Assembly (NCBI GenBank): GCA_038400315.1
Contig: CP151667.1
Location: forward strand, 4,847,174-4,911,173
Direction of reading: 5' to 3'
From: Isosphaeraceae bacterium EP7
GTDB taxonomy: Bacteria > Planctomycetota > Planctomycetia > Isosphaerales > Isosphaeraceae
DNA length: 64,000 nt
Shown: in pieces, positions 39,766 to 43,776 of the stretch
How the letters are laid out: the number at the start of each line of letters is the position of its first letter
Position numbering within the stretch: the first letter of the stretch is position 1
Notes under the pieces: model-generated
What the model was told of the DNA's origin: nothing
Seen by the model: the letters and a program-made list of their open reading frames with translations, nothing else
Database searches by the model: none
Translations under genes and position numbers: made by a program

Positions 39766-39825
39766 GCCGACGCGGCACGTCTCCGGGATGTTTCATTGAC
39801 CACCCGTTCTATTCCAGGAAGATCG

Positions 39826-40998
39826 ATGGCGACCACTCCCTTCGCGAAGGCCGAACGACTCCAGAAGCTTCCCCCCTATCTGTTCGCGGAGATCGATCGG
39901 AAGAAGAAGGCCGCTATCGCCGCCGGCCGCGACGTGATCAACCTGGGGGTCGGCGATCCCGACCGGCCCACCCCCCGTCCGATCATCGAGAGCCTCCAGC
40001 GCAACGTCGAGAACCCGAGCTTCCACCAGTACGCCCTCGACCAGGGCGCGCCCGAGCTGCGCGAGTCGATCGCCAAGTTTTGCAAGAAGCGGTACGGCAT
40101 CGACGTCGACCCGGCCACCGAGATCCTGCCGCTCATCGGCTCGAAGGAGGGGATTGCCCACTTCCCTCTGGCGGTCCTGAACCCCGGCGACATCAGCCTG
40201 GTGCCCGACCCCTGCTACCCGGTCTACCGCAGCAGCAGCATGTTCGCCGGGGCCGACGTCTACACAATGCCCCTCGAACGCGGGCGCGGGTTTAAGCCGG
40301 ACCTAGACGCGATCCCCGCCGACATCTACACGCGTGCAAGGCTCCTCTTCCTCAACTATCCGAACAATCCGACGGGCGGCACGGCCGACCTGCCGTTCTT
40401 CGAGCGGGTGGTCGAGGTCGCCAAGGCTCATCATCTCGTCGTGGCGCAAGATGCCGCGTACAACGAGATGTACTTCGAGACGCCCGCCCCCAGCATGCTG
40501 CAGATCCCCGGGGCGAAAGAGCACGTCATCGAATTCCACAGCCTCTCGAAGACGTTCAACATGACCGGCTGGCGGGTGGGCTTCGCAATCGGTGCCGCTC
40601 CGCTCATCGCCGCGCTCGGGCAGGTCAAGGCGAATACCGACTCGGGCATCTTCACCGCGATCCAGTTCGCCGCCAAGACGGCGCTCGACGAGTACGACAC
40701 CATCGTCCCGCCCCTTCGCGCCGTCTACCGGGAGCGGCGTGATGCCTTCGTCGCCGGCCTGAAGAAGCTCGGCTGGGATGTCCCGACCCCCGAAGCGACG
40801 TTCTACGTCTGGATCCCCTGCCCCGCGGGATACACGTCCACCACCCTGTGCGCCCGCCTGCTCGAGGAGGCCGACGTGGTGACGACCCCGGGGCTCGGCT
40901 TCGGCCGGACTGCCGACCAGTTCATCCGAGCGGCCCTGACCGTCGAGACGCCCCGGCTCCTCGAAGCGGTCGACCGCATCGGCAAGCTGAAACTCTGA
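39826..40998 (+). CDS. LL-diaminopimelate aminotransferase-like class I aminotransferase
   Basis: This 390-residue PLP enzyme has the PLP Lys at residue 242 in SLSKTFNMTGWRVGF, NYPNNPTGG, the Asp in VAQDAAYNEM and the Arg loop of fold-type I. Features such as LPPYLFAEIDRKKKAAIAAG and GVGDPDRPTPRPIIESL fit the DapL branch, which makes LL-diaminopimelate in one step from tetrahydrodipicolinate. ATG 39826 follows AGGAAG closely. Other aminotransferases of this fold cannot be excluded by eye. It lies 14 bases before folK. Confidence 0.85.
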   Translation: MATTPFAKAERLQKLPPYLFAEIDRKKKAAIAAGRDVINLGVGDPDRPTPRPIIESLQRNVENPSFHQYALDQGAPELRESIAKFCKKRYGIDVDPATEILPLIGSKEGIAHFPLAVLNPGDISLVPDPCYPVYRSSSMFAGADVYTMPLERGRGFKPDLDAIPADIYTRARLLFLNYPNNPTGGTADLPFFERVVEVAKAHHLVVAQDAAYNEMYFETPAPSMLQIPGAKEHVIEFHSLSKTFNMTGWRVGFAIGAAPLIAALGQVKANTDSGIFTAIQFAAKTALDEYDTIVPPLRAVYRERRDAFVAGLKKLGWDVPTPEATFYVWIPCPAGYTSTTLCARLLEEADVVTTPGLGFGRTADQFIRAALTVETPRLLEAVDRIGKLKL

Positions 40999-41012: not shown

Positions 41013-42047
41013 ATGTCGACCTTCGCCTTGATCGGTCTGGGGAGCAATGTCGGCGACCGCGAGGCCACCCTGGGCCGCGCGGTCGCCGCCCTCGGCCGCC
41101 TGCCGGGTACGCGACTCCACTCGTTCAGCCGCCATCACACCACCGCGCCGGTCGGTGGGCCCGGCGGGCAGGGCGAGTTCCTCAATGCCGCCGCGTTGCT
41201 GCGGACGTCGCTCTCCGCGCGGGATTTGCTCGGCTCACTCCACGAGATCGAACGCTCGGAGGGACGCGAGCGCATTGTTCACTGGGGTGAGCGGACGCTC
41301 GACCTGGATTTGCTCCTCCACGGCGACTCCGTCATCGACGAGGCCGACCTGGTTGTCCCGCATCCGAGGATGTCGGTCCGTCGATTCGTGCTCGCGCCGG
41401 CCGTCGAGATCGCCCCCAGGTTGGTCGACCCGCTCACGGGACGCACCCTCGATCGGCTGCTGGCGAACCTCGACCGGCGGCCGACCCAGATCTCAATCCT
41501 GGCCCCGCCCGGCCCGCCGACCGCCTCGCTCATCGAGGCCTTGGCGGGGCATTTCGGGTCATCCCTGGTCCGTGGACCTTCGTGCGGGATCGATTCCGGC
41601 GAGACGTTGGCGACTGAAGCCGACGAGTCGAGATTCCGATCGGCGTTCGACGACTTCCTGGAGGGGAATCGGATCGAATCGACGCCCGAGCCGATAGGCG
41701 GGGCATCGCTCCTCCTCAACCTCGCGTGGTACGATCAATTTGCGGTGATCGCGCAGCGGCGTTATGCCTCGAATCCGTGCCGCCTCCTGCCATTTCTCGA
41801 TGCCTGGAAGCGTGGCCGGGCGTTCCTGAGGGCTCCGACCTTCGTCATCTTTTGGGATCCGCCCTGGCCCGGCCCTGGCGAGAATCTCGAGGGGCGGTCG
41901 GCGGAGGGCTGGCTTGGATTAGCGCCCGCATACCGTTCGCATTTGGCGTCTCGGTTGCGGACGGATCCGGTCCTGCACGTTCGTTCGCCGCGTCTTGGCG
42001 ACGCGGTCGAGGAGGCGGTCGCCGCCTTCGCCGCGTCGCGAGGTTGA
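41013..42047 (+). CDS. folK: FolK fused to a degenerate deoxynucleoside-kinase-like domain
   Basis: This 344-residue protein has 6-hydroxymethyl-dihydropterin pyrophosphokinase in residues 1-165: ALIGLGSNVGDREATL, HHTTAPVGGPG, WGERTLDLDLLLHGD and VPHPRMSVRRFVLAP are all present. The C-terminal 180 residues are not part of HPPK. They begin ISILAPPGPPTASLIEALAG, where a kinase P-loop would be. Later RAPTFVIFWDPPW and LAPAYRSHLASRL resemble the later strand and helix of deoxynucleoside kinases. No GxxGxGKT is left. ATG 41013 is the HPPK family start; the frame is open to 40848. It probably shares a transcript with the aminotransferase. Confidence 0.85.
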   Translation: MSTFALIGLGSNVGDREATLGRAVAALGRLPGTRLHSFSRHHTTAPVGGPGGQGEFLNAAALLRTSLSARDLLGSLHEIERSEGRERIVHWGERTLDLDLLLHGDSVIDEADLVVPHPRMSVRRFVLAPAVEIAPRLVDPLTGRTLDRLLANLDRRPTQISILAPPGPPTASLIEALAGHFGSSLVRGPSCGIDSGETLATEADESRFRSAFDDFLEGNRIESTPEPIGGASLLLNLAWYDQFAVIAQRRYASNPCRLLPFLDAWKRGRAFLRAPTFVIFWDPPWPGPGENLEGRSAEGWLGLAPAYRSHLASRLRTDPVLHVRSPRLGDAVEEAVAAFAASRG

Positions 42048-42137: not shown

Positions 42138-42638
42138 ATGGCTAAGAACGACGGTTCCAAGGCGAAATCCAAGTCGAAGGACGACGAGGAAGCGATCAAG
42201 ATCGTGGCCCGAAATCGGCGGGCCCGATATGAGTACGACCTCCTCGAGACGGTCGAGGCCGGAATCGTCCTGACGGGGACCGAGGTGAAGAGCCTGCGAA
42301 CTGGCAAGGCAAGCCTGGACGAAGCCTACGCGGATGTCAGCAAAGGTGAGGTCTGGCTCCTCGGGTGCGATATCCCGGAGTATCTCCAGGCCAACCGGAT
42401 GAACCACAAGCCCAAGCGGCCCCGCAAGTTGTTGCTGCACAAGACCGAGATTGCCAAGCTCGGCACCAAGTCGTCCGAGCGTGGCTTGACCATCGTGCCG
42501 CTGAAGATCTACTTCAAGAAGGGGATCGCCAAGGTCGAAATCTCGATCGCCAAAGGCCGCAAGCTTCACGACAAGCGAGAGGCGGTCAAGAAGCAAGATG
42601 CCAAGCGAGAGATGGATCGGGCAACCAAGCGAGAATGA
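42138..42638 (+). CDS. smpB: SsrA-binding protein SmpB
   Basis: This 166-residue tmRNA partner in rescue of stalled ribosomes has a Lys/Ser-rich N-tail and then [64 protein letters not shown] and the basic C-tail [20 protein letters not shown] follow. All motifs are intact. It starts at ATG 42138, 90 bases after folK. No ssrA (tmRNA) gene is visible nearby. Confidence 0.94.
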
Positions 42639-43071: not shown

Positions 43072-43776
43072 TCAAACGCCCCGGGCATCGGGGGCCCAGA
43101 GCTGCTTGTGAAGCTGGATCTGGAGGCGGATGGGACGCCCGGACTCGAGGATCCAGGCGGCTAAGTCCGTCGGGTTGACCAGCCCGAATGCGGGGCTCAT
43201 CAGCACGGCACAGCGTTCGATCAACGCATGCTCGCCAATCGCGTTGAGCGACCAATCGAAATCTCGACGATCGCAGATGACGAACTTCAATTCGTCCGTC
43301 GGTTTCAGGAGTTCGAGATTCGACCAGAGGTTCGCCTCGTGCTCCCCCGAACCGGGCGTCTTCAGATCGAGGATGACATGAACTCCGGGTGGCACCTGCT
43401 CGATGCCAACTGCGCCACTGGTCTCTAGCAAAACCTTGCGGCCGGCTTCGACGAGTTGGTGCATGAGAGGGTAAACCTCCGCTTGAAGCAGAGGCTCGCC
43501 GCCCGTGACTTCGACGACCGTATCCCCCAGCGCGAGGGCTCGGCCGACGAGTTCGTCCAGCGCGACGAGGTCTCCCTGGCCGAACGAGTATCGGCTATCG
43601 CAATAGCTGCAACGAAGGTGACAGGCGGTCAGCCGGATGAAGGTGCATGGGAGCCCCGCATACAGCCCTTCGCCCTGGATGCTCCGGTAAACCTCGTTGA
43701 CGAGCAGGGTCCCGGGTGGCCTGAGGGCGAGCGGCTTCAATCTGGCGGCGAGTTTCGCATCGGTCGGGGAGATCAC
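43072..43776 (-). CDS. queE: 7-carboxy-7-deazaguanine synthase QueE
   Basis: This 234-residue radical SAM enzyme of the queuosine/7-deazaguanine pathway contracts the pterin ring. The cluster motif is C-x3-C-x2-C at Cys52, Cys56 and Cys59 (CHLRCSYCD). VNEVYRSIQGEG at the start and EVTGGEPLLQ are QueE signatures, as is LDLKTPGSGE. QueC, QueD and QueF are not in the window. It is the last gene on the minus strand after the ATP-grasp and TPR-redoxin genes. Confidence 0.93.
   Translation of the reverse strand: MISPTDAKLAARLKPLALRPPGTLLVNEVYRSIQGEGLYAGLPCTFIRLTACHLRCSYCDSRYSFGQGDLVALDELVGRALALGDTVVEVTGGEPLLQAEVYPLMHQLVEAGRKVLLETSGAVGIEQVPPGVHVILDLKTPGSGEHEANLWSNLELLKPTDELKFVICDRRDFDWSLNAIGEHALIERCAVLMSPAFGLVNPTDLAAWILESGRPIRLQIQLHKQLWAPDARGV

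Follow-up and report, generated by a model that had tools for sequence, protein, structure and literature searches.

The window, i.e. the whole stretch of 64,000 nucleotides from Isosphaeraceae bacterium EP7 that was analysed, carries on its forward strand a folK gene (41013..42047), whose open reading frame runs from ATG to stop and encodes 344 residues: an HPPK (FolK) domain followed by a long tail, assigned here to a degenerate deoxynucleoside kinase (dNK). The HPPK domain, residues 7-135 (41031..41417, forward strand), is recognized by Pfam model PF01288, with an E-value of 2.6e-33 and a score of 115.3 bits versus a cut-off of 25.7, and by NCBIfam model TIGR01498, with 120.6 bits versus a cut-off of 54.1. 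In an alignment to the solved HPPK 4cyu, the motifs GSNxGDR, WGxRTLDxDxLL and VPHPRM, which form the active site, are all present. The protein is the single HPPK match in the whole genome, and the folate step would be carried out by this domain alone, without the tail. Pterin-binding matches (PF00809, FolP-type) are also found in the genome, whereas FolB (PF02152) has no match there; given this absence, the pterin precursor may be made by a different route. A contig scan of genomes with the window protein returned one match, a distant FolK from Pelagibacteraceae.

The tail extends from about residue 150 to residue 344 (41460..42044, forward strand), and its assignment is based on profile-profile matches to intact dNKs, with controls. 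Its landmarks, all on the forward strand, were placed by alignment. An eroded P-loop, APPGPPTAS, at residues 164-172 (41502..41528), lies opposite the GPIGVGKTT of intact dNKs. The segment SLLLNLAWYDQF, residues 232-243 (41706..41741), falls at the V-x-D-Y strand of dNKs, RAPTFVIFWDPPW, residues 273-285 (41829..41867), at the strand preceding the LID region, and LAPAYRSHLASRLRTDPVL, residues 303-321 (41919..41975), at a late helix and strand. The earlier note had described about 180 extra residues after a normal HPPK domain, and had placed the last two segments against the later strand and helix of dNKs; the reading frame, the HPPK match, the altered loop and both segments were confirmed, and the alignment puts the two segments in the corresponding places.

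Directly upstream of folK, on the same strand, lies a dapL-type aminotransferase gene (39796..40998), and smpB (42138..42638, forward strand) follows downstream; both were identified by NCBIfam models and synteny. This arrangement is conserved in the family of the window: among the loci with long flanks, dapL precedes folK on the same strand in 25 out of 28, and smpB follows it in 27 out of 28 (and in 3 of the 4 loci with short flanks). Further downstream, on the opposite strand, a QueE-type gene (43072-43776) matches 7-carboxy-7-deazaguanine synthase models below their cut-offs.

Relation of the tail to deoxynucleoside kinases

Searches started from the single window sequence are mostly blank. 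Neither Pfam nor NCBIfam recognizes the tail by itself, PF01712 is not matched at E <= 10 by either the whole protein or the tail, and the best hit of the tail among PDB sequences has an E-value of 1.6, with no credible match. AlphaFold2, run on the single window sequence, produced an unusable model with a pLDDT of 34, poor for the HPPK part too. When compared as a single sequence with the dNK profile, the window tail reaches a probability of 25.6 (E 7.4e-4); together with that of its closest relative, L002, it reaches 65.0 (E 6.1e-5) over 183 columns. Single tails vary widely in this test: that of L026 alone scores 93.6, and 17 of the 22 tested remain at or below 5.2%.

Alignments of many tails give a much clearer result. 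By using HHALIGN, 16 of the family's 20 long tails matched 19 of 21 intact dNKs with a probability of 94.7 and an E-value of 5.7e-8 over 127 columns, with the P-loop in register; the C-terminal part of the tail lies outside this local alignment. With all 20 long tails and all 21 dNKs, the profile-profile comparison gave a probability of 91.6, an E-value of 8.1e-7 and a score of 47.5 over 162 columns, and this alignment begins at the same place after HPPK as in the fusions of intact dNKs. One hundred column-shuffled versions scored at most 14.7, versus 47.5 for the real pair. Control profiles compared with the family tails reached 0.8% (thymidylate kinase), 0.2% (CoaE), 0.1% (SDR) and 0.1% (reversed dNK). 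Although the tails match dNK but not thymidylate kinase, the intact dNKs themselves match the thymidylate kinase profile at 96.9%. A dNK alignment of three sequences, too thin for the purpose, scored 3.8% against the tails, and the set of 19 was used instead. L071 (from the class of the window) and L072, L074, L078 and L084 (taken as more distant) were left out of the 21 dNKs; L073, L075, L088, L096 and L097 also stand outside this set, having not been caught at sequence extraction or not been added.

The same procedure was applied to other tails. Of the family's seven short tails, the five tested match its long tails at 98.9%. The family's short tails (0.5%), the f5 tails (0.1%) and the f2 tails (0.2%) have no direct match to dNK. 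The tails of family f2, of about 95 residues, could not be shown to be the same domain, as they reach 0.2% against intact dNKs and 5.0% against the long tails. High profile scores obtained among the groups f5, oth and mid were set aside, as these groups share sequences. An HMMSEARCH of the PDB with the profile of 16 family tails gave chance matches only. The best PDB matches of the phylum's intact dNKs, searched as a profile of three, are 8puu, 2jas and 2jaq, deposited as deoxynucleoside or deoxyguanosine kinases, to which the window tail has no sequence match.

Altogether, it is well supported by these sequence comparisons that the window tail is related to the dNK family (PF01712), members of which occur in other lineages of the phylum either as fusions to FolK or as the next gene after folK. 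The proposal that the tail is a dNK deprived of its P-loop is thus supported: the family-tail profile matches intact dNKs, the control profiles are blank, and a Walker A motif is kept in 0 out of 27 fetched tails of the family.

Intact fusions and gene order

Relatives with an intact loop, anticipated by the earlier note, were found. One of them, L049 (the same locus as L071), is a member of the class of the window: its FolK is fused to a dNK with the loop GPLGVGKTT, which scores 46.5 bits against PF01712; no other of the 99 genomes in the relative set has a match to this model. In a wider phylum sample of 392 genomes, PF01712 matches were found in 71, and 40 passed the cut-off. The 31 dNK loci examined consisted of the 30 best matches of the phylum search plus L071, and loci chosen in this way do not give a census. 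Of the 31, 20 combine folK with dNK: 8 are fusions with the loop intact (L071, L089, L091, L093, L095, L096, L098, L099), and in the other 12 folK immediately precedes dNK, its stop lying 23-145 bases ahead of the P-loop codons. At the remaining 11 loci FolK was not found within the fetched stretch. These fusions and adjacent pairs share with the window the order HPPK-then-dNK, but they keep GxxxxGK[ST] and the PF01712 match, both of which the window tail lacks.

The gene order offers a further indication. An aminotransferase gene lies upstream, on the same strand, at six of the eight intact fusions; the identity of its product to that of the window is 55% for L071 and 28-30% for L089, L091, L095, L096 and L098, and aminotransferases at the latter level may be different genes. 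The fusions L093 and L099 and the 12 adjacent loci showed no dapL match upstream. Because an aminotransferase precedes folK both in the family and at 6 of 8 intact fusions, the data favour descent of the tail, in place, from a folK-dNK fusion. In a tree of 89 HPPK domains, L049 groups with L050, a member of the family, and with L060, adjoining the other 31 family FolKs (91/81), in a tree in which 24 of 86 inner branches are open forks, many forks are weak and the bootstrap is unsettled.

Fusions of HPPK with an active deoxyadenosine kinase also exist in Bacteroidota such as Polaribacter: the two domains are the same as in the window FolK, also within one protein, but there the kinase is active. 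A search of the open-licence literature found no paper on a FolK-dNK fusion, that of Polaribacter included, or on a FolK pseudokinase, and passages of a kinase classification (PMC1079889) mention no FolK-dNK fusion.

Erosion, distribution and selection

Residues of the P-loop, of the LEE and LID motifs, and the Gln and Asp discussed below, have established roles in dNKs, and their fate was followed in the tails. The Walker A motif GxxxxGK[ST] is present in 21 of 21 intact dNKs and, among 51 tails of the class, in that of L049 only. The loops APPGPPTAS of the window and APIGPRRDQ of L002 align under the GPIGVGKTT-type loop, and the loops of L026 (GPPRVGKKS), L041 (GPRSVVTRH) and L002 are possible intermediates in the erosion of the P-loop. 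One of the 20 long family tails still has the P-loop Lys, two have the Glu of LEE, each of the two LID Arg is found in one, and the column of the invariant Gln is gapped in all 20. Other positions are retained: the Pro of the strand preceding LID is kept in 19 out of 20, and the Asp of the V-x-D-Y strand in 17 out of 20, although it is a Leu in the window protein. The hydrophobicity of the tails tracks that of dNKs over 149 columns (Spearman 0.57), a measure of agreement that the aligner itself favours, and the hydrophobic fraction in the tails is 0.78 at 33 core columns versus 0.27 at 56 polar columns, again with an alignment that favours hydrophobic matches. All these residue and hydrophobicity counts come from a single alignment, of sequences that have diverged very far, without a control. 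The pattern of losses suggests that the window tail no longer phosphorylates nucleosides; the retained Asp, together with positions conserved among family tails, hints at something more than decay.

In order to follow the tail among relatives, the 99 genomes (the window's own and its relatives) were searched with the window protein; 94 showed a match, and one FolK was read from each of 70. The family of the window accounts for 32 of these 70, out of 40 family genomes with a match. A tail is present in 27 of the 32, with 20 of at least 150 residues and 7 shorter, for a range of 93 to 219 residues, and 5 have none; because most family members carry one, the tail is not a chance read-through. The eight unfetched family genomes include three with open frames of 166-168 codons, and tail-less FolKs may be commoner than 5 in 32. 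Tail-less proteins fall in three genera of the family (g5, g14 and g18). In L024, L028, L029 and L030 smpB starts 0-98 bases after folK; in L016 a gap of 834 bases follows, where no tail was seen by eye. On the HPPK tree the five tail-less FolKs require at least two changes, and one origin is compatible with the well-supported branches; repeated loss of the tail is therefore not claimed.

Selection was evaluated by the NG86 method on 23 within-group pairs, 21 of which gave a computable tail ratio, two tail values being beyond the method. The dN/dS of the tail ranges between 0.27 and 0.78, and that of HPPK between 0.14 and 0.35, with high dS in many pairs; the tail/HPPK ratio, pair by pair, is 1.0-3.7. 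In 21 out of 21 computable pairs the tail value is below 1 and also above that of HPPK. The tail thus looks weakly constrained, judging from these substitution rates, rather than free of selection. L066 (genome G036) was left out, since the HPPK part of its folK is split between two frames, with a broken N-terminus, because of either a sequencing error or a real frameshift.

The salvage genes of these genomes were also searched. All 45 family genomes searched are without a PF01712 match, and thymidine kinase (PF00265) has none in 25 of 25 genomes (16 from the family, the window genome included, and 9 from the class); 24 of the same 25 do have a thymidylate kinase. Within the dNK and TK families, the salvage enzyme of the lineage seems to have been the fused dNK itself, and the absences suggest that deoxynucleoside salvage via these two families was lost in the lineage.

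Possible role of the tail

The reading preferred here, with a probability of about 0.7, is that the tail is what a lost salvage enzyme has left behind, a pseudokinase under weak constraint that serves in structure or dimerisation at most. The tail would descend from a kinase fused to FolK; the lineage would have given up deoxynucleoside salvage, and abandoning it would have freed the fused kinase to decay. What remains would be a weakly constrained pseudokinase, aiding at most the folding or dimerisation of FolK, and some relatives would have dropped it. That the tail had no selected function at all, and has merely not yet been deleted, is a tentative alternative of lesser probability. It accounts well for a tail dN/dS above that of HPPK in every computable pair, for family tails that vary in length between 93 and 219 residues, and for the 4 FolKs of 32 that lack the tail cleanly, with smpB immediately next to folK. 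It fits less well with dN/dS values below 1 in the same 21 pairs, with open frames of 93-219 codons maintained in 27 of the 32 family FolKs, and with the partly kept hydrophobic pattern of the dNK core, the latter being favoured by the alignment itself.

A plain relic or a weak structural role is ranked ahead of regulation because some family members do without the tail, and this absence speaks against an important role. The earlier note had suggested a regulatory or dimerisation domain linking nucleotide and folate supply; the lack of the tail in three genera and a tail dN/dS above that of HPPK do not favour such a role. A regulatory pseudokinase, still binding a nucleoside or nucleotide, tuning FolK and coupling folate output to the supply of DNA precursors, is regarded as improbable: 5 of 32 family FolKs have no tail and 7 more have one shorter than 150 residues. 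The positions conserved within family tails would agree with binding, as would the V-x-D-Y Asp, which 17 of the 20 long tails retain, but this residue is lost in the window protein itself; moreover, the P-loop Lys survives in 1 of 20 long tails and the Gln column is gapped in all. The pairing of folK with dNK in 20 of the 31 loci examined would also suit a functional link. NDUFA10, an accessory subunit of mitochondrial complex I, lends such binding some plausibility: it is a dNK-family protein judged unlikely to be an active enzyme, and its pocket holds adenosine nucleotides in mouse and sheep structures (PMC7699753). Complex I chains named NDUFA10 were matched in the PDB by the profile of the phylum's intact dNKs. 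By analogy, NDUFA10 is a precedent for a dNK turned into a non-enzymatic part, although it is a separate subunit, and the window tail is fused to FolK. Very improbable, finally, is that the tail is an unrelated alpha/beta domain, with a dNK resemblance generic to P-loop or Rossmann-like folds. The blank single-sequence searches with the window tail and the chance matches of the tail alignment in the PDB would be expected in that case, but the profile match is specific to dNK, as opposed to thymidylate kinase, CoaE and SDR, and the tail sits after HPPK as in the intact fusions, with an aminotransferase gene upstream in both.

In the window FolK, an enzyme domain has stayed attached after losing its active site, a genuine example of this kind, though a modest one. 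If the relic reading holds, one gene position spans a series from the intact-loop fusion, through half-eroded loops, to a dead domain and to clean absence, and the folK position would be useful material on the origin and persistence of pseudoenzyme domains. It would also call for caution in annotation, where a FolK tail of this group could be mistaken for a second enzyme, and would point to deoxynucleoside salvage (dNK and TK families) lost in the lineage.

Other additions to FolK occur in the class. The 38 FolKs outside the family comprise 14 fused to an SDR, one fused to an intact dNK (L049), and 9 with long and 14 with short tails without dNK match. The SDR fusions belong to two other families, f3 and f8 (L027, L035, L036, L039, L042, L043, L048, L051, L055, L057, L063, L068, L069 and L070), and two of them, tested with Pfam, match the SDR model strongly. 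The Tyr of the SDR YxxxK pattern is catalytic; in 14 out of 14 fetched fusions it is replaced by Phe, and the Lys is kept. The strand preceding this site reads [IV][ILV][TN][MILV]GWD[QH]. On these replacements, the SDR fusions are possibly a second kind of dead FolK tail, in which case FolK in this class would bear two unrelated kinds of silent nucleotide-binding tail. That dead nucleotide-binding tails recur in the class as a scaffold or sensor module of FolK is a speculative extension, and an unlikely one. Many f2 genomes (e.g. G045, G050, G054, G060 and G066) contain two FolK matches each: one product has a tail of about 95 residues, and the other is a weaker match in a shorter open frame.
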